NCBI RefSeq assembly: GCF_013184775.1
Contig: NZ_JAATVV010000002.1
Span: 524,301-588,300 of the forward strand
Reading direction: 5' to 3'
Length of the DNA stretch: 64,000 nt
From: Martelella sp. HB161492
Lineage (GTDB): Bacteria > Pseudomonadota > Alphaproteobacteria > Rhizobiales > Rhizobiaceae
A model generated the notes under the pieces. That model did no database searches. It was not told the DNA's origin and saw nothing but the letters and a program-made list of their open reading frames with translations. Positions 1 through 25,588 of this stretch are shown one piece after another. The position numbers were made by a program, and so were the translations under genes. Within the stretch, counting starts at the first letter, position 1. Every line of letters starts with the position of its first letter.

Positions 1-3000
1 CCACGAGATAGTTTCGCTCCAGGCCACGCGCTTCTGCGCTCAGTTCAATCGACACCACAGCCTGGTTCAGAAGCACCGCATCTGCCCCGATCTCAGCACC
101 CGCCGTCATGGCATCTTCAGTTCCGGCCAGCCCGCGCAAAAGGCCGGAAAGGCTCCAGAGCCCCGGCGCCGTTTCTTCGGCATTCAGATAGCCGATGATC
201 TCGAATTGGCCGTTGGCGGCCCGCACAGCCAGCCGGTTGGATCCATTCAGAACAGCCAGCTTCGACGCTGAGGCAAACGCACCGAAATCCAGAGCTATCA
301 CGAGCGACTGCGAATAATCGAAACGCCCGGAAACGCCGGAGCCGAGGGATGCGGCAACGGATCCCGTCGATGCCGGCCGATCGACCGTCATGCACATTGA
401 ATAACCTTCGCTCTGTGATGACGAGGACAGAACCAGTCGTTGCCATGGATTTGCGTAAGCCGCAATCCTGGCAAAGCTTTCGGCCTCGTCGCTGTTAAAG
501 CGGGCCAGATCCATGAGAATGACCCGCGGCGCAAAGCCCGATGGGCTCAGCCTTGGCAATCGCGGCAAGACCTGTTCGCCGGATGAAGCCGCCGATACCG
601 ATGGCGAAAAGGCACGCGCGGTAACCTCAATCGCCCCGTTCTGCTCAAGCCGGGTCACCAGGAAACGGCCAGCGGGACCGTCGCTGAGGGATACGACATC
701 GCCCAGTTCGAGTTCAAGGCGTTGTGGCGACAGCGAGAAGCTGAGTTCACGCTTGGCAATTCGCCCATCCCTGAGCAGATTGTCTGCCAGAAGGCGCACG
801 CCGGATTCGTTGAACACCGCGGGCAGGCTATGCATCGCAACCCGGTCATTGTCCACGAGCGTTCGACTGGAACGGACCGTTGCCTGTTCATAGTCGTTGG
901 CAGCATCGCTGAAAATGGCAACCACCTCGCCGGCGATCTCTGCCTCGTGCAACAGCTTTTCACTCCATTGCGGTGCGTTTGGAGAGTCCACAAGCACCGG
1001 CAGCTCGGCTGGCGGAAGGCTTGCTCGAAGCCTCGACCGAAATGTCAGAACCCCGCCGTCCTCGCATACATCGACAAGTCCGAATTCAAGAAGAGGATCA
1101 AGCAGGTCTCTTGCCGATGCCAGTTCGGCCTGTTGATAGCCGATCAGATCATCACTGACCTGCCCGGCGTCGAAGTTGTCGAAGCCGTGGTCCGTCAGGA
1201 GCGTTTCAATCGTATCACCGAGCGTAGAAGCGCCGAGACGTCCGTTGAGCCAGTGCCCCCGGAGCCAGTTGGCCCCGTCGCTCCAGACAGTGGTATCACT
1301 TGGAAATGCTGGAAATGGTCGTGCATCCCAGCACCACAGGAAGATCTTGCCCGGATCGACCATACCCGCCAGAGCGTCGTCGCTTTCCCAGTATCCAAGA
1401 TGGGCCTCGACGAAACGTCGCTGGCTTGCATCAGAGCGGGTTCCGCTCGAAAAATAGGGCAAAGCGCTTTCGGTGGACTTCGGATCGAAGAAAACATTTG
1501 GCTGGTTCGCACCGGCATCGATTGCAGGGCAACCCAATTCGGTGAACCAGACCGGCTTCATCCCCGGCTGCCAGGCGGTTGGCGTGGCGTTCTCGGCGCC
1601 GTCGCGACGCTCATGGTGATAGTTGGACCACCAGTTTTCGATGTCCTTGTAGCGGAAAACCCATGGCTTGCCCGCAAGTCCGTCAGTAATGGGCGTACGC
1701 TGCCGTGCATCGCGGGCGTCTGAGCTGGCATAATACCAGTCGAACCCTTCGCCGGACGTGATATTCCTCCTCAACGCCGCCAGATCATTGGCCAGCCTGA
1801 AACCGTCGGGGCTGGCAGAAGCCAGATCCTCGTCGCGCCAGTCGGACAAGGGCATGTAATTGTCAATGCCGATGGCATCGATGGCCTCACATGCCCAGAG
1901 CGGATCAAGATTGAAAAACACATCGCCGTCGGGCGCGTGATAGCCGAAATACTCGCTCCAGTCGGCTGCATAGGTCAGCGCCGTTGTCGTCCCGACGACG
2001 GAACGGACCGCACCGGCAAGAGACACGAGCCCATCGACAAAAGGAAAGCTGCCATATTCGTCGCGGATCGCGGTCAGCGCCCGCATTTCCGAGCCAATGA
2101 TAATGCCGTCAACACCACCAGCAGCCTCTGCCAGATGGGCGTAGTGTAGGATAAAGCGGCGATAGCCCCAGCCGGTACCGGAATAGGAAATGCTCCCCTG
2201 TGCAGCGGTGAATTGCCCTGCGGCAGCGCTGCCCAGGAATGCGGCAAGCTGATCGGCCGCCTGCGAAGTCTGGTCAACCGTCCCGGTCGCTCCAATGGCT
2301 GGATCACAGGTGATGCGTCCGCGCCAGGGATAGGCCGGCTGCGGCGAGCCGCCATAAGGATTGGGTAAAGTGTTATCGTTCGGAATATCCATCATTACAA
2401 AGGGATAGAGAAACACTTTCAGCCCGCGTGCCTTCAGATCCGCAATCGCTGCAATGAGCCCGGCGTCGTTGGGCGTCCCACCGTAAGCCGCCCCGCCGTC
2501 ATTCGTGGATATCAGCCGGGCTTCGGACCGCGTTATGCCGCTCACACGCCATGGCGAACTTTCCTTATTGCGAGACAAAGTCTCGACGCCCGGCATCAAG
2601 GTGCAGTTGCCCGCCCTCAGATCATCGCCAAACCAGGCAACCACAAGAGCGACACTTTCGAGATTTGGACAGAGTGCCATCAGTTCATCGATGGAAGCCT
2701 CCCAGTCAGTCGCACGCATCAGATTGTTACGATTGAGGATGCGCTGAGAGCCGGGACTGCTGATTTCCGTGACGGCATACGGGCAGAGCCCATGTTCCGT
2801 GGCCCCGGGGATAATGGTGATAGCCCGGATCTCATTTTCCAGTCTGCCCGTGGGGCGCAGAACCTCAAACTGAACCACGGGTATCCTGTTCCCATAGTCG
2901 TCCAGAGGCAGGCGCTCAAAAACCACATAAGCAAGCCCGCGATAGGCCGGAGCATTGCCGCTCCCCTGTTTCGCTTCGATCAGTGGATCAGGCATCTGAT

Positions 3001-3445
3001 CTTCACGGCCGGTATAAACGCGCATTTCCACAGTGGTAAGATCAAGCTCACGACCATCGACCCAGACACGACGGATGGCAGCAATCGGCCCTTCGCAAAT
3101 GCCAAAGGCGAAATTGCCGAAGTAGGAGAAGGTTTCGGTTTTCGTACCCGAGGCTTTGCTGCCCGTGCGTTCGATGATCGAAACCTCCTCAAACCGCGTC
3201 GCCCAGATCAAGGTTCCGCCGAGACGTACCGAACCATAGGCACGCGGCAATGGCGCCCCCTCATCCACGCCTCCCAGGCGGACTGCCCCCAGATGCTGCC
3301 CCTGCGTGGTCGTGCCGCCCCCGAAAAGCCGTGAATCGATCACGCTGCCGGCAAGCGCGCCAAAAGCACGCCCGGCCATCGCGCCAATCGGGCCGAAGGC
3401 GCTGCCGGCCACGGTGCCGGCAACCTGAAGCAAAATCGTCGCCAT
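1..3445 (-). CDS. GTA gp15-like tail hub/host-specificity protein, TIM-barrel type (3' end cut off)
   Basis: Partial gene: about 1148 codons are visible and no stop is reached before the window edge. The protein starts MATILLQVAG with a Gly/Ala-rich N-terminus, then has the TIM-barrel-like domain known from RcGTA gp15. The conserved WFTELGCP motif, with its glycosidase-like Glu, lies near residue 635. A downstream domain resembles the phage tail-3 family. In RcGTA this protein forms the tail-tip hub/fibre, and homologues are about 1300 residues long, so roughly 150 residues are missing. It lies 14 bp after the NlpC/P60 gene and is last in the cluster, as in RcGTA. The family call is firm; a real glycosidase activity is not shown. 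Confidence 0.9.
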   Translation of the reverse strand, partial: MATILLQVAGTVAGSAFGPIGAMAGRAFGALAGSVIDSRLFGGGTTTQGQHLGAVRLGGVDEGAPLPRAYGSVRLGGTLIWATRFEEVSIIERTGSKASGTKTETFSYFGNFAFGICEGPIAAIRRVWVDGRELDLTTVEMRVYTGREDQMPDPLIEAKQGSGNAPAYRGLAYVVFERLPLDDYGNRIPVVQFEVLRPTGRLENEIRAITIIPGATEHGLCPYAVTEISSPGSQRILNRNNLMRATDWEASIDELMALCPNLESVALVVAWFGDDLRAGNCTLMPGVETLSRNKESSPWRVSGITRSEARLISTNDGGAAYGGTPNDAGLIAAIADLKARGLKVFLYPFVMMDIPNDNTLPNPYGGSPQPAYPWRGRITCDPAIGATGTVDQTSQAADQLAAFLGSAAAGQFTAAQGSISYSGTGWGYRRFILHYAHLAEAAGGVDGIIIGSEMRALTAIRDEYGSFPFVDGLVSLAGAVRSVVGTTTALTYAADWSEYFGYHAPDGDVFFNLDPLWACEAIDAIGIDNYMPLSDWRDEDLASASPDGFRLANDLAALRRNITSGEGFDWYYASSDARDARQRTPITDGLAGKPWVFRYKDIENWWSNYHHERRDGAENATPTAWQPGMKPVWFTELGCPAIDAGANQPNVFFDPKSTESALPYFSSGTRSDASQRRFVEAHLGYWESDDALAGMVDPGKIFLWCWDARPFPAFPSDTTVWSDGANWLRGHWLNGRLGASTLGDTIETLLTDHGFDNFDAGQVSDDLIGYQQAELASARDLLDPLLEFGLVDVCEDGGVLTFRSRLRASLPPAELPVLVDSPNAPQWSEKLLHEAEIAGEVVAIFSDAANDYEQATVRSSRTLVDNDRVAMHSLPAVFNESGVRLLADNLLRDGRIAKRELSFSLSPQRLELELGDVVSLSDGPAGRFLVTRLEQNGAIEVTARAFSPSVSAASSGEQVLPRLPRLSPSGFAPRVILMDLARFNSDEAESFARIAAYANPWQRLVLSSSSQSEGYSMCMTVDRPASTGSVAASLGSGVSGRFDYSQSLVIALDFGAFASASKLAVLNGSNRLAVRAANGQFEIIGYLNAEETAPGLWSLSGLLRGLAGTEDAMTAGAEIGADAVLLNQAVVSIELSAEARGLERNYLV

Positions 3446-3459
3446 GAAGGGTCTCCGGT

Positions 3460-3897
3460 TCAGTTGATATCGGGAAGGCGGAACACGCCGGCAATGCGAC
3501 GGCGCCATGAAGGCACCAGTGCCGAACGGATCACACCAGCCTGTTCATAGGCATGGATGAAGCTTTGCTGGTCGGCGAGAATACCCAGATGCTTGGCGGG
3601 AAAGCGCGCCTGCCAGCGAAAGACCAGAAGGTCACCCGCTTCCATCATCGGCAGCGCGACGGGCGCGCCACAATAGCTCCGCGCGGCAGCGAGAATGCGC
3701 TCCTCACCGCCATGTTCCGCCCAGTCGACCGAATAGGGCTCACCGTCAAAGGGATCTATTCCGTAAAGAGAGCACCAGACGCCGCGGACGAGACCGAGAC
3801 AATCACAGCCGATGCCCTTTTTCCCGGCCTGGTGCCGATAGGGTGTGCCAATCCAGTCCTGAGCCAGCGCAACGGCCCGTTCTCCAGCCGTGCTCAT
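3460..3897 (-). CDS. GTA gp14-like NlpC/P60 cell-wall peptidase
   Basis: A 145-residue protein of the NlpC/P60 fold. The nucleophile Cys lies in GIGCDCLGLVRG (about residues 28-39) and the catalytic His in KHLGI near residue 101. In RcGTA gp14 this tail-tip peptidase cuts peptidoglycan peptides so that DNA can enter. The start ATG overlaps the stop of the DUF2163 gene by 4 nt, so the two are translationally coupled. There is no signal peptide, as expected for a particle component. Confidence 0.92.
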   Translation of the reverse strand: MSTAGERAVALAQDWIGTPYRHQAGKKGIGCDCLGLVRGVWCSLYGIDPFDGEPYSVDWAEHGGEERILAAARSYCGAPVALPMMEAGDLLVFRWQARFPAKHLGILADQQSFIHAYEQAGVIRSALVPSWRRRIAGVFRLPDIN

Positions 3898-4784
3898 GAG
3901 AAAAGCGGACTTCCGTCATGCAGGCTTTCACCATCGACATAGGAATAGGCAAAATCCGCCCCCGGCACATGCGGGAAACCCCTGAAATTCACCTGATTGG
4001 CAAATTTTGCCTTGCATGTCGAAAATGCCTTGTTGCATCCGGCATACACCGTAACGCCGGCGCCGACCTCAGGCAGTGCCGTGAGCGGCAGCCAGAGATC
4101 AAACTTCACGCCGCTGCCGAAAACGCGGTTGGCTTCAACATCAACGCTTTGGCCTGAAAGCAGGCCGGATGTAAAAGTCATCGTGCCATAGGCAAAAAAA
4201 TTCTCGTCAAAGCTTTGCCCCAGCGTCAGCAATAGCCGGTTATCGGCCAGAACCTCTGCAATCGTGCCGCTTGCGGAATAGTCCGGGCTGTTCGTATCGA
4301 TACCGCAGCGCTGGTCGCCCAGCTTGGCATCGCAACGCCGCGCAAAACTTCGGCCCTTCGCTTGCGAAAGCCTATGGCTAAGCGAGCGCAGCTCGGCATG
4401 AAAAGCGCCCGCCTCGCGGCGGATGTCGCCGAGTTCCTGTACCGAGAGCAGCTGAAATGCCGATGGTTCCTGCCAGTTCACGACGAAATACTCGACCCTC
4501 GCCCCCTCATACCGGCCGGCGATCAGATCCTCTTCCGAAATGGCATCACTGGAAAAGCCGCCCGCCACTTCACTCGTATCAGCCCCGAGACCGCCATCAC
4601 TCTGCAGCGCCGATGCGGCAAAGCCGCTCGCCGCCTGGAATGTCGTTCCGTCAAAGGTCAGATTGCGATCGTGCTCGGTAAAGCCCAGAACGCCGCCATC
4701 TTCAAGCGACAGCCGCCAGCAGAAGCAGATCGTCGTCGAATCATTGGCAATATGGCTGGACAGAGCCTCATTGATTGTCCTCAT
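3894..4784 (-). CDS. GTA gp13-like DUF2163 tail protein
   Basis: A 296-residue DUF2163 protein, the usual length for the family. The C-terminal part has the conserved Cys-containing segments RCDAKLGDQRCG and AGCNKAFSTCKAKF and ends with HVPGADFAY, typical of the GTA/phage baseplate family. RcGTA gp13 is a hub component in the tail tip. The start overlaps the DUF2460 stop by 4 nt and the stop overlaps the NlpC/P60 start by 4 nt, so gp12-gp13-gp14 form a tightly coupled unit. Confidence 0.92.
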   Translation of the reverse strand: MRTINEALSSHIANDSTTICFCWRLSLEDGGVLGFTEHDRNLTFDGTTFQAASGFAASALQSDGGLGADTSEVAGGFSSDAISEEDLIAGRYEGARVEYFVVNWQEPSAFQLLSVQELGDIRREAGAFHAELRSLSHRLSQAKGRSFARRCDAKLGDQRCGIDTNSPDYSASGTIAEVLADNRLLLTLGQSFDENFFAYGTMTFTSGLLSGQSVDVEANRVFGSGVKFDLWLPLTALPEVGAGVTVYAGCNKAFSTCKAKFANQVNFRGFPHVPGADFAYSYVDGESLHDGSPLFS

Positions 4785-5416
4785 GGCCTGATCTCCGCAA
4801 GCGGCACGCTGGGAACCATGCCCGCTTTGAATGTCTTGAGATTGACCTCAATACGGTCGATGTCGAAACGCACCGGCACATCAAACTCAAATCCGGCGAA
4901 GATCGCGGCACCGCCTGCCGGTATCGCCCCGGCAACAAAGGTCATCACCCCGGTCGCTGCGTCGAGCACAACATCGGACACGACGGCACCGTCGACGGAG
5001 ACTTTGAGCGTTCCGGAGACCGGTTTTTCAATCGACCGGACGAAGCTTGAACCGGCATCGCCATAGGTCTTGATCAATTGATAACTGGCCGTCGTTCCGT
5101 CGCCGGTCCCGATGAATTGATCAGTCGCCGAGACCGTCTGCAGCGGGCTGCAGGATTTGAAATCAACAGGATCGCGAAAGCGAAAGCCAAACAGCTGACC
5201 GCGCCTCGCTTCAAAAAACGCCATCAGTTCGTAGAGATCGTCCAGTGAGCGTAGCCCAGATCCCGCATCGTAGCTGCGTCTGGAATCGAACCATCTCTGG
5301 TTCCGGTTTTCCCGCCCGTTGGAAAGGTTGACGATATCGGTTCTGCGCACCGGTCCCCCACTTGTGGCAAGGGAGAGGCGCAACGGAAACCGCACATCGT
5401 GAAAGCCGCCCGACAT
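4781..5416 (-). CDS. GTA gp12-like DUF2460 distal tail protein
   Basis: A 211-residue DUF2460 protein. The N-terminus FHDVRFPLRLSLATSGGPVR and the motif NGRENRNQRW are hallmarks of this GTA/phage tail family, and the middle has FFEARRGQLFGFRFRDP. RcGTA gp12 is the distal tail protein that links the tube to the hub. It begins 16 bp after the tape-measure gene and overlaps the next gene by 4 nt. It is full length with no oddities. Confidence 0.92.
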   Translation of the reverse strand: MSGGFHDVRFPLRLSLATSGGPVRRTDIVNLSNGRENRNQRWFDSRRSYDAGSGLRSLDDLYELMAFFEARRGQLFGFRFRDPVDFKSCSPLQTVSATDQFIGTGDGTTASYQLIKTYGDAGSSFVRSIEKPVSGTLKVSVDGAVVSDVVLDAATGVMTFVAGAIPAGGAAIFAGFEFDVPVRFDIDRIEVNLKTFKAGMVPSVPLAEIRP

Positions 5417-5431
5417 GTTCCACTCCCTCGG

Positions 5432-6010
5432 TCAGATATTGCGCTGTCCAGCGCGCACAGCACGTGCCAGCATGGCGGAGATCTGCGCCTCACTGCGTCG
5501 AAAACTGTCGGCGTCATTCGCCGAAACGTTGAAGACAACCGATGTGCCACCGCCATTGCCGGACGCAACGCCAAGAGAGCCATCGGGGCCGCGCTTGAGC
5601 GGCAGGATGGCTTCCGTGCCCGCCTCCCCCATCAGGCCAAGACCGCCACTCATGGGAAAATAGGTCGGGCTGGAAACCACGCCGCCCTTGGCAAAGGGCA
5701 TTGTGCGGCCGGGTACGCCGCCCTTGGCATTGGTCACCGCATCGGCGAGCTCACCGACAAGCCCCGAAATCCCGTTCGAAAGTGTTGTTTCCAGCGGTTT
5801 CAGTGCCGATCTGAGCGCAATATCGCTGAGCCGGCGCGCCAGACCGGACAGCACCGTGTCCAGGCTTTTCCCGCCGGCAACGGCTTCACGCATCGCCAGC
5901 GTGATCGAACTGGCAAATGCGTCGGACTGGTTCTGAAGCTCTGTGAAAGCGTCACTCAGCGCCGTTACACTGTCATTCGCCTGGCTGAAGCCTTGACTGT
6001 CAGTTTCCAT
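5432..6010 (-). CDS. GTA gp11-like short tail tape-measure protein
   Basis: A 192-residue protein with the C-terminal FAKGGVV...GLMGEAGTEAILPL motif of lambda-like tape-measure proteins and a helical N-terminal half. Tape-measure length sets tail length, and the RcGTA protein is similarly short (about 219 residues), so a very short tail is inferred. I chose ATG 6010 because GAGGAAGAGG lies just upstream on the minus strand; an upstream TTG at 6025 would add five residues. It follows the small chaperone gene by 11 bp. Confidence 0.85.
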   Translation of the reverse strand: METDSQGFSQANDSVTALSDAFTELQNQSDAFASSITLAMREAVAGGKSLDTVLSGLARRLSDIALRSALKPLETTLSNGISGLVGELADAVTNAKGGVPGRTMPFAKGGVVSSPTYFPMSGGLGLMGEAGTEAILPLKRGPDGSLGVASGNGGGTSVVFNVSANDADSFRRSEAQISAMLARAVRAGQRNI

Positions 6011-6021
6011 GAGCCTCTTCC

Positions 6022-6240
6022 TCAATCGGGGTAAAGCGCCATCAGCTGAGCGAGTTCGCTGCGTTTCGGCGCGTCATGATCATGTCCGAACTGGCCGGTC
6101 ATGGCGGCAAATTCCGCCGGTGTCAGCGACCAGAATGCTGCCGGTTCAAGCCGCAGCAGACAGAGCCCGGCATGCATCGCTTCCCGCCAGGGAAACGGGG
6201 CGATGCCGGGAGGTTCGGGCTCTGCCGCTGCGGCTTTCAA
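6022..6240 (-). CDS. GTA gp10.1-like small tail assembly chaperone
   Basis: A short ORF of up to 72 residues with the motif RLEPAAFWSLTPAEFAAMTG, typical of the small phage tail chaperone next to the GTA tape-measure gene. The start is uncertain. A TTG at 6240 overlaps the preceding stop as TTGA, which suggests coupling; the first ATG, at 6177, would give about 51 residues. In siphophages this position is the second of the two tail chaperones that load the tape measure. Confidence 0.75.
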   Translation of the reverse strand: MKAAAAEPEPPGIAPFPWREAMHAGLCLLRLEPAAFWSLTPAEFAAMTGQFGHDHDAPKRSELAQLMALYPD

Positions 6241-6611
6241 GGGTCCGCGCCGGTCTCCGGCTGTTCGGCGGCTGCGGACCCGGAAAAGGTGAGGCTCAGC
6301 AATTCGCTGACCAGTCGGGCGGAACCGGCAATGCCGCCCTCAACGCTCATTCCAGCGACATCCTCGTCGGAAAAGGCATTGCCGCCGCCCCTGAGCGCCG
6401 CACCGATGATGCGCACGAGATCAATCGCTTTGAGCTTGCCGGAGGCAAAGCGGTGGCCGAGATCGGCGAGATTATCCGCAGCAAAAGCCGTTTCCAGCTC
6501 GGACAGCGCCCCCAGTGTCAGGCATAGAATGCGGCGCTCACCATCAATGACCGCTTCCACTTCGCCGCGATGCCGGTTCGCCCGGCGCGTAGTGACCGGG
6601 GCCGTCATCAC
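6237..6611 (-). CDS. GTA gp10-like tail assembly chaperone (GTA TAC family)
   Basis: A 124-residue 'gene transfer agent family' protein. It has a basic N-terminus (TTRRANRHRGE), a beta segment GERRILCLTLGAL, then ELETAFA and LVRIIGAALRGGG, as in the GTA-specific tail chaperone family. It overlaps the major tail gene upstream and the small chaperone downstream by 4 nt each. A frameshift joining this gene to the following one, as in lambda gpG/GT, is possible, but I found no clear slippery heptamer. Confidence 0.85.
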   Translation of the reverse strand: MMTAPVTTRRANRHRGEVEAVIDGERRILCLTLGALSELETAFAADNLADLGHRFASGKLKAIDLVRIIGAALRGGGNAFSDEDVAGMSVEGGIAGSARLVSELLSLTFSGSAAAEQPETGADP

Positions 6612-7015
6612 AGCGCCCCGAAGCTGACGGCACCCGCAGATTCAAGCGCAATCTCGAATTTCATCTCACCGTCATAGGCGCCCGAATAGTCAAGCGATGT
6701 AATCTGGAACGGGCCGGAAACCGTGCCGAATCCGGGAATGACAATCTGGCTCTCGATCAGGCTCGCCGAGAAAAAGGCCACTCGCACGGTCTCGTCGGAG
6801 GCCTGATCCTTGAACAGGCCGCTCGCCGTCATGGATGCGCGCTGCATTCCGGCGCCACCCAGAAGCTCGCGCCAGCGACCCGAGCTTTCGGAATCGGTGA
6901 TATCGACGGTCTCTGCATTGAACGCCAGCGTGCGCGACCGCAGGCCTGCGACCGTCTCATAGCTGCTGCCGTTATGGACCTTCAGCAGCATGTCCTTGCC
7001 TTTTTGGGCAACCAT
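6608..7015 (-). CDS. GTA gp9-like major tail tube protein
   Basis: A 135-residue protein of the TP901-1-type major tail family: MVAQKGKDMLLKV, then ETVDITDSES and GLFKDQASDE, ending in beta-rich segments. It forms the tail tube by hexamer stacking in related particles. It is separated from gp8 by 70 bp that contain a terminator-like hairpin, and it opens a coupled run gp9-gp10-gp10.1. Confidence 0.92.
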   Translation of the reverse strand: MVAQKGKDMLLKVHNGSSYETVAGLRSRTLAFNAETVDITDSESSGRWRELLGGAGMQRASMTASGLFKDQASDETVRVAFFSASLIESQIVIPGFGTVSGPFQITSLDYSGAYDGEMKFEIALESAGAVSFGAL

Positions 7016-7038
7016 GCGTCATCTCCCTTGCATGAATG

Positions 7039-7059
7039 AAAAAAGGCGCCTCAGCGCCC
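7039..7059 (-). terminator. terminator-like hairpin between gp8 and gp9
   Basis: On the minus strand the 5-bp GC stem GGCGC/GCGCC with a TGAG loop is followed by a run of six T. It lies after the gp8 stop and 24 bp before the gp9 start, so it could reduce read-through into the tail genes. Confidence 0.5.
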
Positions 7060-7085
7060 GGGGGAACAATGCGGCAACGTCGGCC

Positions 7086-7490
7086 TCACGCCGTCTCGGT
7101 CACAGCCCGAAAACGCACCTCTGCATAAAAATAGTCACTGCGTGCCTGCCGGCGTACGGTGACGCCGCTGCGCTGCAGATTGATCAGTACATAGCCGTCA
7201 AGGCTCAGTGACACGTCGCCGAGCAGCAGCGAAAGCCTGTCGATAATCTGCTCGATCTCGCGACGCCCCGGCGCATCCGACCAGACTTCAAAGGTCAGCT
7301 TGTGCTCCTCGGTGCGCTCGATATCTGCGCTCAGGTCACGCACGTCTGTGGCACCATAGACAATGACTGGCAAACGCTGCGTCGACAGTCTGCGGTCAAC
7401 GATCCCGTCTTCGGCCACAAGCCCCGCCAGGACCGGATCCGTGCTCAGAACGGCATGAATGGCTTTTTGCAGAGCATTGCGCGCGCTCAT
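7086..7490 (-). CDS. GTA gp8-like DUF3168 tail terminator protein
   Basis: A 134-residue DUF3168 protein. Visible family features are ALQKAIHAVLSTDP at the N-terminus, RLPVIVYG, and HKLTFEVWSDAPGRREIEQI in the middle. In HK97-like phages and RcGTA this protein caps the tail tube at the neck. The start overlaps the stop of the head-closure gene by 4 nt. Confidence 0.9.
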   Translation of the reverse strand: MSARNALQKAIHAVLSTDPVLAGLVAEDGIVDRRLSTQRLPVIVYGATDVRDLSADIERTEEHKLTFEVWSDAPGRREIEQIIDRLSLLLGDVSLSLDGYVLINLQRSGVTVRRQARSDYFYAEVRFRAVTETA

Positions 7491-7819
7491 GAGCTGATCT
7501 CCTCACAACGGCAGACGAGGTAGCGCCCTGTCTCGTCGGGATCGTGGAAAGTCACCAGGCGGAATTGCCGCCCGCCCTTGGCAAACCGCATCTCTGCCGC
7601 CAGATCGTCGCGATGCCGTAGCCAGATCCTGTGGGTGATCCGTCCCACGCCGGCATTGGCTTCCTCATCGAAGGCAACCGATTGCGGTTCGACGCGCGCC
7701 CAGGCCTTGCCAAAACTCTCAAATCCCCGGGTCACCCCGCCCTGCCCGTCAGCCGTATCCACCGGACGAAGCAGGTTGAGGCGCTCTGAAAAGGCTCCGG
7801 AATCCATGGGCGCAATCAT
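7487..7819 (-). CDS. GTA gp7-like head-closure (head-tail adaptor) protein
   Basis: A 110-residue phage head-tail adaptor. The N-terminus SERLNLLRPVDTADGQGG and the motif RITHRIWLRHRDD are characteristic of this family, which plugs the connector before tail joining. The start ATG touches the stop of the gp6-like gene (TGATG) and the stop overlaps gp8 by 4 nt. Confidence 0.9.
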   Translation of the reverse strand: MIAPMDSGAFSERLNLLRPVDTADGQGGVTRGFESFGKAWARVEPQSVAFDEEANAGVGRITHRIWLRHRDDLAAEMRFAKGGRQFRLVTFHDPDETGRYLVCRCEEISS

Positions 7820-8385
7820 CAGAGCCTCCAGCTTTTAAGTGGCGCGATAAGCGCCTGATAGCCCTGCGGCTCGGCAGCCGGCTGGTCCGTGAGTGCAACA
7901 ACACCACGCAACGCGTACATGTGAGCCACGTGGCGGGTAATCGCAGCTTTGGCTGGTTCCGGCACATCAGCAGCGGCGCCGTAGCCCGCGATAAAATCAA
8001 CCTCGATTCCATTCATGGAAGCGCGGGCCGCGGCAATCTCAGGCAGGTAGAACCGCACCGGACGGGCTGTGCCATCCAGCCGCGCCCGGTCAAGCGCAAC
8101 CGCATTCGCATTGCCTTCAGCATCGTAAACCGTCACGGATGACACGCTCGCCACCGGCCCATGCGCAAGCGAGATCATGCCGCTTTTGGGCCAGCTGTCG
8201 CGATAGAGCCGCCAGCTCTGCGTCATCAGCGATAGCCCCGTCAGCGCCTCCAGATGCTTGCGCGCCGTCACGATCAGCCCGGTGATCAGCTCATCGTCAT
8301 CATCATGATCGATGCGCAGATAATTCTTGGCTTCATCCAGGCTTACCGGCTCGCTAGCAGGCGGCGTCGTCAGTGCATAGGTCAT
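7819..8385 (-). CDS. GTA gp6-like head-tail connector protein
   Basis: A 188-residue protein of the phage gp6-like connector family: MTYALTTPPASEPVSLDEAK, then YLRIDHDDDDELI and the helix TARKHLEALTG, ending in the QALIAPLKSW motif. I chose ATG 8385 because AGGGGAA lies upstream and the product matches the family; the frame stays open to 8466 but that would run through the hairpin at 8410-8428. It forms the ring below the portal. Confidence 0.9.
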   Translation of the reverse strand: MTYALTTPPASEPVSLDEAKNYLRIDHDDDDELITGLIVTARKHLEALTGLSLMTQSWRLYRDSWPKSGMISLAHGPVASVSSVTVYDAEGNANAVALDRARLDGTARPVRFYLPEIAAARASMNGIEVDFIAGYGAAADVPEPAKAAITRHVAHMYALRGVVALTDQPAAEPQGYQALIAPLKSWRL

Positions 8386-8401
8386 TGAAGTTTCCCCTGA
8401 A

Positions 8402-8428
8402 AAACAAAACCCCCGGCAAAACCGGGGG
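8402..8428 (-). terminator. terminator-like hairpin after the capsid gene
   Basis: On the minus strand CCGGTTTTGCCGG closes as a 7-bp GC stem (CCCCCGG/CCGGGGG, 8410-8416 and 8422-8428) followed by TTTTGTTTTT. It sits between the capsid stop (8453) and the gp6 start (8385). It could make capsid mRNA more abundant than the connector and tail mRNA. Confidence 0.7.
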
Positions 8429-8452
8429 CCATGAACTGAAGCGCCGTGCCAA

Positions 8453-9706
8453 TCAGGCAGCAGCAAACTTGATCAGCTTGATCGCGTCGAAATTCTGCAC
8501 CCCGCCGCCGACACGCTTGGTGGTGTAGAACAGCACATAGGGCTTGGCCGAATAGGGATCGCGCAGAACCCGCACGCCGGTACGGTCGACAACGAGATAG
8601 CCAGCGGCAAAGTCGCCAAAGGCAATCGAAAAGGCATCGGTGGCGATGTCGGGCATGTCTTCGGCTTCCGTCACCGGAAAACCGAGCAGCGAGGCAGCAC
8701 CGCCTGCCGAGGCTGGCGGTTGCCACAGATAGTTGCCATCTGCGTCCTTCAGCTTGCGCACCGCACCTTGGGTCTTGCGGTTCATCACGAAATTCGCATT
8801 CTGGCGATGGCCTGCCTTCAGCGAATAGATCGCCTCGATCAGCACATCAGAGGCTCCCACGGCGGCAAAGTCGCCGTCGACGCCCGTTGCGTGATAGCCG
8901 ATCTTGCCCCAGTCATAGGCACTGTCGGCGACGGTTGTGTAACTCAGAAAGCCTTTCGGCTTGTCCGTGCCGTTGCCGGAAACAAAGGCCGCGCCTTCCT
9001 GCTCGGCAAAGGCCATATCCACCTCGCCGGCGATCCAGCTTTCGATGTCAAAGGCGGCATCGTCCAAGAGCGATGCGCTGGCCGCCGGCATGGCGTAAAG
9101 CTCCATCGTCGGGAACGAGAGTTCGGAAATCTCCGGCGTTGCGGTCTGCGGGCGTGCTGCCGTTTCGGAAACCCAGCCGGCCGTAAATCCGCTGGCAACG
9201 AAGGGGCGCTTCAGAACCGCGCCGGAGACCTGGCGTACCGTTGCCAGCGACCGGATCGGCGAGATGGTCGTCAGGCGACGACCGATCTCACTGTCCGTTT
9301 CTTCCGGCACCAGATAGCCGCCATCGCCATCGGTGGTCGAAGAAAGCGCCTTGGCTTCCAGCCCGCGCAGGCCGGCATCATCGCCACGGCGGATATATTT
9401 CTCAAAGGCCGCCTTGTGCTCACCGGCAAAGGCTCCGGCCCGGCCCAGTGTCGGGCGCGCCTTCTTCAGCGCCATTTCATCGATCATCTTGCTCTGGCGA
9501 TCCATGGCGCTGTTGATGCGATCCAGCTTTTCGCGGGTGATCACATCTTCGGAACATTTGCTCTCCAGTTCGAGGAGGCGACGGTCGTTGGTTTCGCGGA
9601 AAGCCTCGAAGCTGGTCATGAAATCTTCGAAAGCCCGTTCGATGGTCTCCGGCATGCCCTTGATTTCAGGCGCCGCTGTCAGATCATGTTTTGTCACGAA
9701 ATTCAT
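8453..9706 (-). CDS. HK97-fold major capsid protein (GTA gp5-like)
   Basis: A 417-residue HK97 family capsid protein. The N-terminal 120 residues form a helical, charged delta region, expected to be removed by the prohead protease. The core starts near LSSTTDGDGGYLVPEE and contains GNGTDKPKGFL and GGAASLLGFPVTEAEDMP, standard for the family. It lies 18 bp downstream of the protease gene and is followed by a strong terminator-like hairpin. Confidence 0.95.
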   Translation of the reverse strand: MNFVTKHDLTAAPEIKGMPETIERAFEDFMTSFEAFRETNDRRLLELESKCSEDVITREKLDRINSAMDRQSKMIDEMALKKARPTLGRAGAFAGEHKAAFEKYIRRGDDAGLRGLEAKALSSTTDGDGGYLVPEETDSEIGRRLTTISPIRSLATVRQVSGAVLKRPFVASGFTAGWVSETAARPQTATPEISELSFPTMELYAMPAASASLLDDAAFDIESWIAGEVDMAFAEQEGAAFVSGNGTDKPKGFLSYTTVADSAYDWGKIGYHATGVDGDFAAVGASDVLIEAIYSLKAGHRQNANFVMNRKTQGAVRKLKDADGNYLWQPPASAGGAASLLGFPVTEAEDMPDIATDAFSIAFGDFAAGYLVVDRTGVRVLRDPYSAKPYVLFYTTKRVGGGVQNFDAIKLIKFAAA

Positions 9707-9724
9707 CCTTGATCGGTTTGAGTT

Positions 9725-10423
9725 TCAGGGCCTTGGGCGCATCATCTGCCGTGCTTCGTCGAGAAGCGCGATGAGGTCACGCTCGCGCGCCCCAGTTTCA
9801 CCGTCGGCAGCATCCCGCCTGCCGGTCAGCGCGTCATAGCCACCGGCCAGAAACCGGCGGGCGGCTTTACGGCTCAGGCCGGCATCCCGCGTCAGCCATC
9901 GCTCGAAATTCCTGATTGTCGGAAACACCTCTTCGGCATGTTTCACACTGTCGACCCGCGCTGAGAGCAGCATGGGAAACGTCACGATCGAGATTTCCCA
10001 GAGATCCGCCTCCAGAATGCGGCGCACGCCCGATTTGGCGTCGGTCTTTGCTCTCACGGTCTGAAACCCGATCGAAAGCCCGTCGAGGCCGCCTGATTTC
10101 ATCAGCGCATGGATTTCCCTGGCGCGTGACACATCCGCGGAAAGCTGTCCCTCGACATAGAGGCCGCGGCCATCTTCACGCAGTTTCGTCCAGGTGCCGA
10201 TCGGCTCTGATGGATCATGCTGAAACAGCATGCGCACGCCCTCGGCACCGCGCTTTTCCAGCGATCGGCGAAAGGCGCCACGCTCTATGGCGTCCTTGCC
10301 GAGATCGACCTCGCCGAAGATGCTGGCATAACCGGAAAACCGGCCGTCACCGGCAAGGTCGGTCAGCGACAGATCGGCGTATTTCAACGTTGCGGCGGAA
10401 AGAACCGCGTCACCACTTTTCAT
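9725..10423 (-). CDS. HK97-family prohead protease (GTA gp4-like)
   Basis: A 232-residue prohead maturation protease. Family features are GYASIFGEVDLGKDAIERGAF, the catalytic His in MLFQHDPSEPIG, and the Ser region GGLDGLSIGF. It cleaves the capsid delta domain inside the procapsid. ATG 10423 is preceded by ACAGGAG at good spacing; an upstream in-frame TTG at 10438 is less likely. The C-terminal part (after FERWLTRDAG) is helical and basic. Confidence 0.93.
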   Translation of the reverse strand: MKSGDAVLSAATLKYADLSLTDLAGDGRFSGYASIFGEVDLGKDAIERGAFRRSLEKRGAEGVRMLFQHDPSEPIGTWTKLREDGRGLYVEGQLSADVSRAREIHALMKSGGLDGLSIGFQTVRAKTDAKSGVRRILEADLWEISIVTFPMLLSARVDSVKHAEEVFPTIRNFERWLTRDAGLSRKAARRFLAGGYDALTGRRDAADGETGARERDLIALLDEARQMMRPRP

Positions 10424-10482
10424 GATCGCTCCTGTCAATGAAAACGGGCTTCAGAAAGATCCGGCTTCGCATGCAGGCCGGT

Positions 10483-11640
10483 TCAGTATCCAACGGCGGC
10501 GCGCTTTTCGTCTTCACTCAGGAAGTCAGCAGCGCCGATTCGGGCCCATAGCGCATCGCGCTCGCCGGAGAGGCCGCTGACCTGATCGAGATCGGCCTCC
10601 AGTGTGAGATCCGTCCCATAAAACGGGCCAAGCCATGACATCAGATGCGCAACGGTTCTGGCGATCAGCGGAATGACCGTCAGCCGGTAAAATGCGCGAT
10701 TGGCTTCCTGATAATTCGAATAGGTGTTGTCGCCGGGGATACCGAGCATCATCGGCGGAACGCCAACGGCAAGCGCGATATCGCGGGCTGCGCCGTTTCT
10801 GGCTTCCGTGAAATCCATGTCGCGCGGGGTCAGTCCCATCGCCTTCCAGTCAAGCCCGCCTTCCAGCAGCAGTGGCCGGCCCGCCCGCGCTGGCCCGGAA
10901 TAGCCTTCCTCCAGCTCCTGCTTCAGCCGCTCATACTGCTCCTCCGTCAGATTGCCGCCCTCCTTCGGCTGGTAGACAAGCGCTCCGGAGGGACGGGCCG
11001 AATTGTCAAGCAGCGCCTTGTTCCACACGGCAGAGGCATTGTGCAGGTCGAGCGCCATCTGCGCAGCGGCGAGCGGCGAAAAGCCGAGATGATCATCAAG
11101 CGGATGAAACAGCCGCATATGCAGGAGCGTCGGCTCCCCGCTCTCCGCAGGATAGCGCGACATGCGGGCTCCGACCCGGTATTCATAAGCCTCCGGCCAA
11201 CCGTCAGCGCCCTCGATCACCCGCATCCTGTCGGGCCGCAAAAGATGCAGTTCCCGCACGTCCTCACCCAGGATAACCGGCTCGATGAAGGCATTGCCGG
11301 ACAGCAGCAGATGGCCGTAAAGTGCCTCGAAGAAATCGATGCCGCTGGCCCGCCCATTGGGTTTGTGCAGCAGTGTCAGCAAGGGATGAGCGCTCAGTTC
11401 ATCCTTGCCCTGGTAAAGCAGCAGCGGCACGCTTGCCGCCGTCTCGCAGATCAGCCGGATCGCGCGATGGGCAACCGGGTTCTTCATAAACCCCTCGCGC
11501 GAAAGCGCCCCGAATGAGCGGCCGGACCAGCGCGCTTCTCCCTGAATGGTCAGCGCGGAAAAGGCTGTTGCCGTCTTCTTTTCGGCAGCACCAAGTGCGA
11601 CCGCCGGGCGGCGCCACGGCAGCTGGAAGGACATTTTCAT
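10483..11640 (-). CDS. phage portal protein, HK97 family (GTA gp3-like)
   Basis: A 385-residue portal protein forming the dodecameric DNA gate at the capsid vertex. Typical segments are NPVAHRAIRLICETAASVPL, LLSGNAFIEPV, LLRPDRMRV and PPMMLGIPGDNTYSNYQEAN. Family proteins in GTAs are about 390 residues, so it is full length. A terminator-like hairpin lies 35 bp upstream of its start, so its transcription must either read through or start locally. Confidence 0.95.
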   Translation of the reverse strand: MKMSFQLPWRRPAVALGAAEKKTATAFSALTIQGEARWSGRSFGALSREGFMKNPVAHRAIRLICETAASVPLLLYQGKDELSAHPLLTLLHKPNGRASGIDFFEALYGHLLLSGNAFIEPVILGEDVRELHLLRPDRMRVIEGADGWPEAYEYRVGARMSRYPAESGEPTLLHMRLFHPLDDHLGFSPLAAAQMALDLHNASAVWNKALLDNSARPSGALVYQPKEGGNLTEEQYERLKQELEEGYSGPARAGRPLLLEGGLDWKAMGLTPRDMDFTEARNGAARDIALAVGVPPMMLGIPGDNTYSNYQEANRAFYRLTVIPLIARTVAHLMSWLGPFYGTDLTLEADLDQVSGLSGERDALWARIGAADFLSEDEKRAAVGY

Positions 11641-11669
11641 GCCTCACCTCGTCTTATGTTTTGAGAATC

Positions 11670-11693
11670 AAAAAAGCCCCGGAAACCGGGGCT
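11670..11693 (-). terminator. Rho-independent terminator after the Dabb gene, before portal
   Basis: On the minus strand an 8-bp GC stem AGCCCCGG/CCGGGGCT with a 3-nt loop is followed by TTTTTTGATT. It lies 35 bp after the Dabb stop codon and 30 bp before the portal start. It is a textbook intrinsic terminator inside the GTA cluster. Confidence 0.8.
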
Positions 11694-11727
11694 CGACATT
11701 CATTTCCACCTGTTGAGAAACGGCGCT

Positions 11728-12045
11728 TCAGTCCTTGTAGAGCGATGATTTGACGGCTGTCTCGCTGTTGAAATCAGCGGCGATCCGCATTTCGCGCATC
11801 GGCTTCACGATCGAGGTTGACTTGTCATAGAGCGGGTGGGCGCGGTAGGCATCAAGAGCCGCTTCATCATCAAATTCAGCATAGACGACAAAATCCACCT
11901 CATTGCCATAAAGGTCACTGCGCTGGTTTCGGCCGATCTCCACCAGACGGGCATGCGGGTTCTGGGTGAGGATGGAAAGCCCAGCCTCAACCTTGTCGGC
12001 GTCGCCGCCCTCAGGAACCGAGAAAAATACGATATGCCGAATCAT
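11728..12045 (-). CDS. Dabb (stress-responsive A/B barrel) family protein within the GTA cluster
   Basis: A 105-residue Dabb-domain protein: MIRHIVFFSVPEG at the N-terminus and FDDEAALDAYRAHPLYDK in the middle, both hallmarks of this dimeric alpha+beta barrel family. Members include stress-induced and polyketide-cyclising proteins; the activity here is unknown. It has a GAGGTCAG ribosome site, a 171-bp gap upstream and its own terminator downstream, so it is probably a separate transcription unit. RcGTA has no such gene between terminase and portal. Confidence 0.9.
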   Translation of the reverse strand: MIRHIVFFSVPEGGDADKVEAGLSILTQNPHARLVEIGRNQRSDLYGNEVDFVVYAEFDDEAALDAYRAHPLYDKSTSIVKPMREMRIAADFNSETAVKSSLYKD

Positions 12046-12216
12046 GCCTGACCTCTTGGCTGCGACAGGAGCCTTTCGTTTCGGCTATCACGGCTCACCA
12101 GCCCCCGCAACCACTCCGCCCGATAGCGCCGCGATATGGCGTATCAGGCGACATCAGAACGCTATCCGCTTTTTCTCAGCGGTTCTGGCTCATCAGCCCG
12201 AACAGGGACAACATCG

Positions 12217-13551
12217 TCAGATCCGCCGTATGCGCGGCATCCCGTCACCTTCGAGCAGCAATGCAGTCAGCGCCCAGACCAGCGCGTCGAGCCGGTCCGG
12301 CGAGCGTCCGGCGGAAAGACCACCCGGCCCGAAATCGCACATCTGGTCGATCAGCGCCGAAAAATGCCCGCCATGGCGCACCCGCCCCTGTTCATAGAGC
12401 GCGGCCACAGGTTCGGCGCGCAGGAATTTGCCGCGCATGGCCCGGACTGTCGTCACCGGCAAGCGTTCGTCAACGCTCTTCAGCATCGCCGTCACCATGT
12501 CGCCGCCCTGGTTGATTTCCGCGACCACCCGGTCGGCATCGAATTCCCGGAACGTCCGGACCACCATATTGGCCCAGACGGATGGCGCTCCGCCCTCGAC
12601 CGAACGATCCGCCAGCACCAGCGCGCCGCCATTTTCCATCAGACCTGCCACCACGATGCCACAGACGGACTTTTTGCCCGACCCCGAAGGCGGATCGACC
12701 GCCACGACGATCCGACCTTCCGCCCGCGCATCGCGGTCAACAAGCTCTTCCAGATCCGCGCGCCGCCACAGGCCGTCCTCGCGATCCTCGATCAGCTCGC
12801 CATCCAGTTCCTGGCGTCCGAGCCGGGTACCGCCATATCGTGCCGACAGTGCACGGATAAAGCCCGGCGCCAGATTGGCATGGTTGTCGCGGGTCGAGAT
12901 CCGCGTGAATGTCGTGGTTTCATCCGCCATCAGCTGCTTGACCAGCGGCACCGCACGCGGCGTCGTCGTTACCATCTGGCGCGGATTATCCCCCAGCCTC
13001 AGACCAAATTGCAGCATGTCCCAGCACTCGCGGGCATAGCGCCATTTTGCCAGCTCATCGCACCACGCGAAGTGAAACTGCGGCCCGCGCAATGCCTCGG
13101 GATCTTCCGATGAAAACAGATAGGCAACCGAACCATTGGGCCAGACCAGGCGCCGCCGGCTGATTTCAAATTCCGGGCGCATCCGTCTTGCAATCCGGCA
13201 GATCCCGGAGACGCCGTCAATCATCACTTCTCGCGCATCACCCAGGGTTTCGGCGATGAGCGCAATCCTGAGATCCGAGCGTCGGCCTACAGCCAGCGCC
13301 GTTGCATGGATCCATTCGGCCCCGGCACGGGTCTTGCCCGAGCCGCGCCCGCCCATCAGCAGCCATGTCCGCCAGTCGCCCGATGGCGGCAATTGCTCGG
13401 CGCGGCCAAGAAAGGCCCAGTCGCGCGACAGCTCCGTTGCGAAGGCAAAACCATCAGCCGGCCTGCTGTTCTCGCTGCCATTCGGCAATGCGACGTCCTG
13501 CCAGTTCCTCGGCACGCTGTTCAATGAGCTCGAGGAACTTTGCTTTGGCAT
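12217..13551 (-). CDS. terminase large subunit (GTA gp2-like)
   Basis: A 444-residue terminase ATPase-nuclease. Walker A GGRGSGKT is at residues 67-74, Walker B CDE at about 164-166, and the RNase-H-like nuclease starts with AVDPPSGSG (Asp 286). It packages DNA into the head; GTA terminases package headfuls of host DNA. The start overlaps the gp1 gene by 98 nt, but an AGGA 8 nt upstream supports ATG 13551. It is intact, with all key motifs present. Confidence 0.95.
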   Translation of the reverse strand: MPKQSSSSSLNSVPRNWQDVALPNGSENSRPADGFAFATELSRDWAFLGRAEQLPPSGDWRTWLLMGGRGSGKTRAGAEWIHATALAVGRRSDLRIALIAETLGDAREVMIDGVSGICRIARRMRPEFEISRRRLVWPNGSVAYLFSSEDPEALRGPQFHFAWCDELAKWRYARECWDMLQFGLRLGDNPRQMVTTTPRAVPLVKQLMADETTTFTRISTRDNHANLAPGFIRALSARYGGTRLGRQELDGELIEDREDGLWRRADLEELVDRDARAEGRIVVAVDPPSGSGKKSVCGIVVAGLMENGGALVLADRSVEGGAPSVWANMVVRTFREFDADRVVAEINQGGDMVTAMLKSVDERLPVTTVRAMRGKFLRAEPVAALYEQGRVRHGGHFSALIDQMCDFGPGGLSAGRSPDRLDALVWALTALLLEGDGMPRIRRI

Positions 13552-13960
13552 GTTCGTAATCCTGCTTGTCGTTGATCCGCTCGTCCTCTGCCTGGCGTTC
13601 GCTCGCCAGTCGCCGCTGCATTTCGTCCGCCTTTTCCAGCGTGCGGATGATCAGCGCGATGGCATCGGTCGCGGATTTGACATCGCCGCGTGCCTCGCGC
13701 ACCGCCTCACCGCCAGCCCCGGTCTCCTTCTGCGCTGCGCGGCGCAGCGAGCGGAAGAAACCGAACTGCGCCCGCATCTCCGCCGTCAGATCGTTGAGCA
13801 GCAGTCGCAGCTCTTCCTGAGGATCACGGCGGCGCGCCTTCGGTTCAATCATGTAAAACCCGGGTGCGTCGGCATGGGTGACCGTCTTGCCGCCGTCATA
13901 GCGCGGTGCACGCGGCCACAAGCCGTAAAGCGACGGCTCGAATGACGGGTCATCGGACAT
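13454..13960 (-). CDS. GTA gp1-like protein, putative small terminase
   Basis: A 168-residue, helix-rich, charged protein with a likely coiled coil over the second half (from about ATDAIALIIRTLEKADEM to the end). By position, directly before the large terminase, it is the gp1 equivalent, which in RcGTA acts as a small terminase. I chose ATG 13960 because GGAGG lies 5 nt upstream; longer in-frame starts (13972 and 14152) would include a terminator-like hairpin. Function is inferred from position, not motif. Confidence 0.7.
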   Translation of the reverse strand: MSDDPSFEPSLYGLWPRAPRYDGGKTVTHADAPGFYMIEPKARRRDPQEELRLLLNDLTAEMRAQFGFFRSLRRAAQKETGAGGEAVREARGDVKSATDAIALIIRTLEKADEMQRRLASERQAEDERINDKQDYEHAKAKFLELIEQRAEELAGRRIAEWQREQQAG

Positions 13961-24019: not shown

Positions 24020-24131
24020 CGGGAAAGCGGCAAAGGTGACAGCGGTCAGCATGGAATGGTTCCAAACAAGACCAACACCCGTTATACCGAGGAAGAGCCT
24101 CGCATCACGCGGCGGTGGCCAGATTGCCTTT

Positions 24132-24184: not shown

Positions 24185-24225
24185 TTGCAACCAGGCGAGA
24201 GCAGACCAACAGACGGATACGAACC

Positions 24226-25206: not shown

Positions 25207-25588
25207 GATTGCCGAGCCCCAGCGCAACGACAATCTCAATGGCCAGACGCTCGATGCGGGTCACGAAGGCATCATAATCGCTATCGTCGCGCCAGTCCTC
25301 CACCTTGCGGCAGGCATAGGCGACTGTGGTGCGATCCCGCCCGAACCCCTGCCCGATCTCATTCAGAGAAAGGCCGAGCGCCACATGGCAGACATACATC
25401 GCCATCTGCCTGAGATGGGCGCCGCCGCGGCGCTGAAGTCGCTCCTTGCCAGCAGGCAGACAGCCCATCTGCCCCAGCTCGAAGGTCAACAACCTGACGA
25501 CACGGCAAATCGAAAGCGTATCACCATTCAACTTCAGTGAATCTGCGACCGTCCCTGAACGGTCCGTGATATCTGCTAAGGTCCCCAT
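25199..25588 (-). CDS. small HTH protein resembling DnaA domain IV
   Basis: A 129-residue protein. Residues about 60-98 resemble the C-terminal DnaA-box-binding domain: LSLNEIGQGFGRDRTTVAYACRKVED-like sequence with the F-GRDRTTVAYA recognition helix. No AAA+ domain is present. Stand-alone proteins of this type could bind DnaA boxes or act as ordinary transcription factors. It is first in a two-gene unit with DUF6456. An AT-rich non-coding region lies upstream. Confidence 0.75.
   Translation of the reverse strand: MGTLADITDRSGTVADSLKLNGDTLSICRVVRLLTFELGQMGCLPAGKERLQRRGGAHLRQMAMYVCHVALGLSLNEIGQGFGRDRTTVAYACRKVEDWRDDSDYDAFVTRIERLAIEIVVALGLGNHG

Follow-up and report, generated by a model that had tools for sequence, protein, structure and literature searches.

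Evidence for a selected RcGTA-type gene transfer agent operon in Martelella and for the recurrent collapse of related operons into a TerL::gp15 chimera

Introduction

RcGTA, the gene transfer agent (GTA) of Rhodobacter capsulatus, has its structural genes arranged in the order gp1 to gp15, with gp10.1 among them, and CcGTA of Caulobacter combines an RcGTA-like cluster with a two-gene activator, GafY/GafZ. Here we describe a cluster of this type in a stretch of 64,000 nucleotides from Martelella sp. HB161492 (assembly GCF_013184775.1, contig NZ_JAATVV010000002.1, positions 524,301 to 588,300), which is called the window throughout; the source genome comprises 5.28 Mb in 52 contigs. Very probably, the cluster is the structural operon of an RcGTA-type GTA, passed on vertically at a constant position in the chromosome and maintained by selection, and a neighboring GafA pair is most likely its switch. 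Relatives have lost the same operon by several routes, and one that recurs is an in-frame collapse that leaves gp1 and a chimera of the large terminase (TerL) and the baseplate hub protein gp15, here termed TerL::gp15. Genomes and loci used for comparison are denoted by G and L numbers.

In the sections of the literature drawn on here, the split gafA of Hyphomicrobiales is described as lying in the order mucR, DnaA-like gene, gafA and sufE (Sherlock and Fogg, PMC9638019), and the same paper cites Kogay et al. 2019 (PMC6821227) for RcGTA-like clusters in 60% of 730 Hyphomicrobiales genomes. The window cluster is of the kind predicted there for Hyphomicrobiales. GTA clusters are also reported to have been pseudogenized or completely lost in many lineages (PMC10883770), and a Mesorhizobium prophage is reported to carry many RcGTA homologues (PMC11409702).

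The GTA Cluster of Martelella sp. HB161492

A complete RcGTA-type head–tail cluster occupies positions 1 to 13960 of the window and a further 394 bases beyond its left edge, on the minus strand, as determined from lists of open reading frames (ORFs) and from family scans of the cluster proteins (Pfam and NCBIfam; for gp1 also PHROG). It comprises 16 GTA genes (gp1 to gp15 and gp10.1) co-linear with their RcGTA homologues, every frame being open, and an extra gene with a Dabb domain between TerL and the portal gene. Residues 22 to 1279 of the 1300-residue gp15 (1..3508 and the 394 bases left of the window; minus strand; L002:9907-13809) align with RcGTA chain 6tba_8A/6teh (E 1.6e-255), and the best solved relative of the HK97-fold major capsid protein gp5 (8453..9706, minus strand; PF05065, 306.3 bits) is the RcGTA capsid Rcc01687 (E 1.2e-106). 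The gp15 protein, the baseplate hub or "megatron," matches NF048004 GTA_megatron at 1624.9 bits (cut-off 800) as well as GTA_TIM, Phage-tail_3, and Rcc01698_C, and TerL (gp2; 12217..13551, minus strand; PF03237 and PF17289, Terminase_6N/6C) is the sole Terminase_6N match of the genome. An earlier note on this DNA, made from the sequence alone, had listed fifteen adjacent genes in RcGTA order. All fifteen are present and open in that order, but gp10.1 was missed and the Dabb gene interrupts the run; the end of gp15, which the note suggested seeking left of the window, was found there with the frame open.

A TerL gene was found in 55 of the 61 genomes searched, and each of the 13 searched members of the genus has it with an open frame; both counts include G000. 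Twelve congeneric loci were fetched, 11 of them long enough to judge. All 11 contain the 16 GTA genes and the Dabb gene with no stop inside any gene, the two stops in the alignments lying one at a gene end and one before a gene start, and the twelfth locus (L036) ends with its contig and shows gp1, TerL, and Dabb. No frameshifted homologue, which the earlier note had named as a finding that would speak against it, occurs in the judgeable loci. The ratio of nonsynonymous to synonymous substitution rates (dN/dS, or omega), calculated by the Nei–Gojobori method against the nearest congener, G007, is 0.038 to 0.160 for the GTA genes and 0.238 for the short gp10.1. Five flanking genes have an omega of 0.006 to 0.228, and the GTA genes lie above the two slowest of these neighbors and near the rest; the GC content is 60.6% in the cluster and 56.7–59.5% in the flanks. 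The structural genes are under purifying selection, in line with the earlier argument for selection rather than decay. The flanks of the cluster are shared by congeners and by other genera, which together with the presence of TerL throughout the genus points to vertical inheritance at a conserved locus.

Could the cluster instead be an ordinary prophage, or a recent prophage remnant, that resembles RcGTA? RcGTA-like genes are known in phages, the Mesorhizobium prophage mentioned above being one instance, and 326 phage records match TerL, every one of them at less than 60% identity. However, no genes for phage integration, replication, or immunity were found among ten left-flank genes and most of the right flank, where the scan went to about 33 kb but did not take in every ORF, and ARAGORN detected no tRNA, either in the window itself or in locus L002, which extends 10.3 kb past the left edge of the window. 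Neither an integrase nor replication genes of its own, as a temperate siphophage would have, accompany the cluster among the genes scanned, including those just left of the window, where the earlier note said that such genes would speak against it; att sites were not searched for. The occurrence of TerL in every genus genome, the flanking genes common to the clusters of other genera, the low dN/dS, and the activator pair close by also argue against a prophage, which we consider highly improbable. It is because of the conservation, the low dN/dS, the shared flanks, and the phage matches below 60% identity that we regard the cluster as an intact, vertically inherited, and selected GTA of the RcGTA type.

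A different concern is that such a cluster may no longer make particles and may be kept for another use, or may stand at the start of decay. Relatives do lose the cluster in several ways: among the matches listed, 57 of 297 family genomes (some incomplete) have no match to the N-terminal half of TerL (TerL-N) or the C-terminal half of gp15 (gp15-C) at E 1e-20, the loci of G350 and G482 (another family) are broken, and a lysis holin was not found here, though the control was silent too. Against this stand the 16 open genes and the low omega of the head and tail genes, which is near that of most flanking genes, and we would give such a loss of particle production only a slight chance. Gene content, open frames, and low dN/dS lend good support to the description "potentially functional" in the earlier note, and the cluster is probably functional as a GTA.

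Several points weigh against this reading. The GTA is known here from its genes alone. The putative small terminase gp1 (13454..13960, minus strand), assigned from its position upstream of TerL and from similar ORFs at the equivalent place in relatives, matched no Pfam, NCBIfam, or PHROG family. The short tape measure protein gp11 (5432..6025, minus strand; 197 amino acids as against a 220-position model) scored 168.8 bits with NF058675, below the curated cut-off of 220. PF11351, the family of the GTA holin, matched nothing in the genome, but the control was silent as well. Finally, the GH108 protein and the DUF2793 protein encoded elsewhere in the genome are only putatively the GTA endolysin and a spike or fiber, respectively.

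Activator Genes and Dispersed Parts

A GafA-type direct activator is encoded about 11 kb from the cluster by a pair of genes in the same window that the earlier note had overlooked (24667-25588). The first encodes the C-terminal, GafZ-like half of gafA (24667..25239, minus strand) and is the sole DUF6456 match of the genome (PF20057, 136.6 bits), and the second is a DnaA-C-like gene corresponding to the N-terminal, GafY-like half (25199..25588, minus strand; PF08299, 51 bits). The DUF6456 protein had no significant match among solved structures (best E 0.22). The pair is flanked by sufE (24115-24657) and mucR (26035-26511), and the resulting order is identical to the synteny of split gafA described for Hyphomicrobiales in the sections of PMC9638019 drawn on. 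In those sections only local synteny is mentioned, whereas in the window the pair is linked to the cluster; several relatives (G007, G016, G069, G199, G275, and G022) likewise carry gafA no more than about 30 kb from the cluster or from what is left of it.

Compared to RcGTA, the window cluster shares the gp1 to gp15 order, clear homologues of the capsid and gp15, a GafA-type activator, and, putatively, dispersed accessory genes. It differs in its internal Dabb gene, in its tape measure of 197 residues, in having gafA split into two genes that lie only 11 kb away, and in that no holin was matched in the genome, with the reservation given above. In having a two-gene activator and an RcGTA-like cluster it is, by description, like CcGTA. 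The split GafA pair would most likely turn on the operon upstream of gp1, gp1 and TerL would fill the head with short, presumably random pieces of host DNA, and, once particles were released, the tail (gp9 to gp15) would deliver this DNA to related cells. With the cluster whole and the activator pair close to it, this rhizobial GTA is well suited to testing whether GTAs function outside Rhodobacterales and Caulobacter.

The DUF2793 gene (L003 1420-2469) is directly preceded by a comM-like (Mg chelatase) gene, the two together spanning L003 109-2469. ComM acts in DNA uptake by GTA recipients, and this neighborhood may be meaningful. The DUF2793 protein matches chain 8gtc_S (E 2.2e-13), which was deposited as "Ribonuclease III" in entry 8gtc, where a "Megatron protein" is present too. 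That label probably misleads, a phage tail part being the likelier identity of the protein, and such a match would fit a tail or fiber role for the DUF2793 protein.

A TerL::gp15 Chimera in Related Genomes

The chimera was first seen in G016 and G020, where only TerL residues 38 to 167 were matched, within an open frame of about 840 amino acids. At these loci the cluster is gone, and TerL, as far as its Walker B motif, continues without a change of frame into the part of gp15 that starts near residue 650 and extends to the end. In the chimeras with the common junction described below, TerL is cut right after Walker B (...RGPQFDxAWxDE) and joined to the second half of gp15 (xG[CA][PAG]A[VIL]... 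to the end), giving a product of about 830 amino acids made of half a terminase ATPase and the tail-hub domains. All six chimeras scanned contain Terminase_6N (about positions 2 to 105 of 215), GTA_TIM (its last third), Phage-tail_3, and Rcc01698_C, and 33 of the 34 chimera frames retain Walker A.

A protein search of the family (297 genomes) gave at least seven chimera genomes in six genera; for three of these genera, the fetched loci include a congener whose gp15 is normal. Six of the seven share a codon-exact junction, ...AAWxDE joined to xG[CA]PA[VI]...; in G275, TerL is cut at the common place but enters gp15 some 16 residues later. A DNA pattern built on the junction, which misses G275, matched 10 of 115 loci, all of them chimeras and none an intact cluster. 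Over 84,980 species genomes it returned 24 stretches, namely 23 chimeras and one chance match (L131). Five of the 23 belong to Rhizobiaceae sensu lato (including Mesorhizobium alhagi, Aminobacter anthyllidis, and Phyllobacterium calauticae) and 18 to Rhodobacteraceae sensu lato (Roseovarius halotolerans, Roseivivax marinus and jejudonensis, Solirhodobacter olei, Rhodobacter kunshanensis, Yoonia, Amylibacter, and others). Searching the second family at the protein level (246 genomes) yielded at least 13 chimeras: 11 of full length, G482 with a frameshift, and G837, which is cut by a contig end. In total, at least 36 genomes carry the common junction (8 and 28 per family, identical pairs merged), with G275 in addition; some of these genomes were assigned to a family through loci identical to named records. 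The figure of 36 is a floor, because the family searches give "at least" counts and the pattern misses other junctions such as that of G275. The chimera loci are L063, L064, L098-L102 (with a slightly different junction in L099), L116-L139 (not L131), L150-L156, L158, L159, L161, L163, L188, and L189. The invariance of the AWxDE..GxPA columns in their alignment (A1) arises by construction, as loci were found with a pattern that demands it.

Four of the 36 chimeras are broken (L117, L118, L135, and G482). Six others (L121, L124, L132, L136, L139, and G837) run off the fetched stretch or the contig end, and three of these were seen whole in an identical genome. Apart from the four broken ones, every chimera has an open frame over the part that could be read. 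An assembly artifact was considered and rejected, since chimeras occur in genomes of one to four contigs (G069, G176, G199, and G806).

A collapse of another kind was observed at L187 (G350), where a full TerL is followed by portal residues 15-228 and then by the last part of gp15; because of this locus, it can be said that other deletions also occur.

Origins of the Chimera

A junction shared by so many genomes could reflect repeated origin and retention of one product. Alternatively, the site could be a hotspot in the DNA, or recombination could have spread a single deletion allele or a few of them, the product itself being unselected. A single ancient chimera was rejected on the basis of the trees and of an approximately unbiased (AU) test. 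In a tree of 46 gp15 second halves, seven chimeras need six changes, all of them forced by well-supported branches. In a tree of 63 gp15 rows that includes Rhodobacteraceae (L117, L121, and L139 being left out, as their gp15 part is too short), 31 chimeras need 13 changes, 11 of them forced, a count that is inexact because G482 (L142) was scored as a non-chimera, its frameshift having hidden the junction. Trees of the TerL half gave seven changes, four of them forced, for 28 rows and six changes, four of them forced, for 35 Rhodobacteraceae rows (L182 absent). All of these are changes of state and not strictly losses, which leaves some room for the account without selection, but regain of a whole cluster is thought unlikely.

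When the chimeras were held as one clade, the AU test rejected the constraint for gp15-C (p-AU 2.5e-62) and, with less data, for TerL-N (p-AU 0.010). In four lineages with the common junction, both halves join an intact sister on starred branches: G199/G121 with G259, G482 with G930, L116/L126 with G580, and L130 with G792. G275, which has its own junction, forms a fifth such lineage with the intact G022. These results speak against the spread of a single allele, and that the chimera arose more than once is the reading best supported by the sequences. Recombination may nonetheless have contributed. At the DNA level, L119 and L150 share 85-92% identity across their TerL halves, more than either shares with its intact sister, and their gp15 halves show no such likeness; weaker signs were seen in L128, L116, and L064, in which TerL-N windows are nearer to another chimera than to the intact relative used. 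Therefore, some deletion alleles may have spread by recombination.

A hotspot would draw on a short conserved TGG..GAR stretch that is present on both sides of the junction. However, in the ten intact clusters with a measurement (out of 14, L180, L182, L184, and L107 not being among the ten), TerL and gp15 match exactly over just 3-7 nt where they would be joined, and each cluster offers 370 to 37,998 in-frame site pairs that are at least as good. Better-matching repeats elsewhere amount to 22-203 pairs per cluster in nine clusters. With so short a match and so many equal or better alternatives, DNA similarity fails to explain the site, and microhomology alone was rejected as the cause of the junction.

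Maintenance and Possible Role of the Chimera

Substitution rates bear on whether the product is under selection. The omega of the TerL half is 0.034-0.27 in nine chimera pairs, compared with 0.04-0.15 for intact TerL in five Rhodobacteraceae pairs (a sixth being saturated). The highest value, 0.27, which is what would be anticipated of an unselected product sooner than the rest, comes from the young pair L100/L101, for which comparison with the intact G259 gives 0.24-0.25. The lowest values, 0.034 and 0.053 (at 96.7% and 93.3% identity), come from the old clade L120/L123/L161, and in an old chimera the TerL half can be as constrained as intact TerL. The gp15 half has an omega of 0.14-0.32 in ten chimera pairs versus 0.08-0.24 in five intact pairs and is therefore somewhat looser in chimeras overall. 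No stop codon was seen in four pairs, versus 60-154 expected under neutrality by a rough estimate from the dS of the gp15 half of each pair. The four broken chimeras are what a lack of selection would produce; taken with the low omega of the old clade, the absence of stops, the junction counts, and the tree results, they leave the account without selection a possible one that we hold to be rather doubtful.

The context of the chimera was compared among genomes. ORFs resembling gp1 lie upstream of it in 31 of the 33 loci compared (all except L063 and L099; overlapping frames not separated), and gp1 has an omega of 0.19-0.56 in six chimera pairs. Nineteen chimera genomes were searched for other GTA genes (G016, G020, G069, G121, G176, G199, G275, eleven full-length Rhodobacteraceae, and G482). 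The activator gene gafA is kept in 18 of them, being absent only from G176. The capsid gene is gone from the chimera locus; 12 of the 19 genomes have no capsid match at all, and in the other seven all matches lie away from the locus at 28-49% identity and are taken for prophages. DUF2793 is kept in 13 of the 19 and stands directly behind the chimera in five (G923, G841, G838, G901, and G783), and in none of eight intact Rhodobacteraceae does it adjoin gp15.

One off-locus capsid (G199:C1:2488353-2489537) is 49% identical to the GTA capsid and far from the chimera; it probably belongs to an RcGTA-like prophage.

An AlphaFold model of the chimera (15 rows) had a mean predicted local distance difference test score (pLDDT) of 70.4 and a predicted template modeling score (pTM) of 0.42. 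Within the TerL half, residues 71-140 reached a pLDDT of 71-88 but the surroundings of the Walker A loop only 40-61; the TIM remnant (161-270) had about 29-54 and the gp15 domains mostly 70-92, with dips. The prediction would thus have the TerL half partly ordered, the TIM remnant disordered, and the tail-hub domains mostly well predicted, and it does not support a well-ordered ATPase half. Across six chimeras, the sole PADLOC result was a weak DpdH match (E 1.5e-4), which was taken as chance. The best 8 of 100 phage records matching the chimera cover 74-81% of it, in the gp15 half only.

Collectively, the reading best supported by these comparisons is that the chimera arose repeatedly, is mostly kept for some function, and is tied to gafA-bearing genomes. 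We lean toward the view that an RcGTA cluster, when lost, often gives rise to a new gene instead of simply decaying, several separate deletions having taken out all that lay between the two joined parts. The product would be a host protein exapted by convergence, possibly a decoy or blocker under GafA control that acts on GTA or phage packaging or adsorption; the decoy or blocker role is a guess. No mention of a TerL::gp15 chimera was found in the sections of the GTA literature examined for fusion terms (PMC9836097, PMC6821227, PMC7947584, PMC10883770, PMC9765227, and PMC11409702), and other papers may mention it; the words fusion and fused did not occur in those sections of PMC9836097, PMC6821227, PMC7947584, PMC9765227, and PMC11409702. 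The losses considered in the examined part of PMC10883770 are pseudogenization and complete loss, without the chimera. Repeated collapse of a GTA at one codon into a mostly open chimera is a fate that we did not find described in this literature. Should the chimera prove functional, a second domestication of GTA genes would be possible, and GafA would have targets that survive the loss of the particle. The long-standing question of GTA retention or loss could then be approached by testing what the leftover protein does in particle-less cells.

Gene Content and Surroundings of the Cluster

The remaining cluster genes, all on the minus strand, are described here from the tail to the head. Next to gp15 lies gp14, an NlpC/P60 cell-wall peptidase (3460..3897; TIGR02219, 178.2 bits), followed by the baseplate hub attachment protein gp13 (3894..4784; PF09931 and PF09356, phiJL001_Gp84_N/BR0599) and the DUF2460 tail protein gp12 (4781..5416; PF09343, 265.5 bits). 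Beyond the tape measure gene come the tail assembly chaperone gp10.1 (6022..6240; PF09550 Phage_TAC_6, 60.9 bits), the GTA-gp10 tail protein gp10 (TAC_11; 6237..6611; PF11836), and the tail tube protein gp9 (6608..7015; PF06199). The tail completion protein gp8 (7086..7490) is gp17-like and matches PF11367. The head is represented by the head completion protein gp7 (7487..7819; PF05521, Phage_HCP), the head–tail connector gp6 (7819..8466; TIGR02215, 184 bits), the prohead protease gp4 (9725..10438; PF04586 and TIGR01543), and the portal gp3 (10483..11640; PF04860 and TIGR01537; 289.6 bits), in addition to the capsid.

The Dabb gene (11728..12045, minus strand; PF07876, 71.2 bits) encodes a stress-responsive A/B barrel protein and is not a GTA core gene. 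It was matched in all 12 congeneric loci and in L048 and L050 of two other genera, and its omega of 0.067 indicates purifying selection.

The ten left-flank genes encode a 103-amino-acid ORF product without known family, a two-component pair of response regulator and histidine kinase, a 17-kDa-antigen-like protein (weak match), a TPR protein, CcmE, CcmF, CcmH, a DegP-like protease, and a second response regulator. A response-regulator gene, as found beside gp15 here, recurs adjoining the GTA clusters of other genera. The right flank carries genes for a CMD protein, a CxxCxxCC protein, a branched-chain amino acid transporter set, and DUF2336, PG-binding, and DUF5330 proteins, with a cation/proton antiporter operon further on. 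These right-flank genes, like the left-flank genes of known family, are housekeeping genes. At L046, L048, L052, and L054, gaps of 1 to 6 kb separate GTA core genes, which suggests inserted genes.

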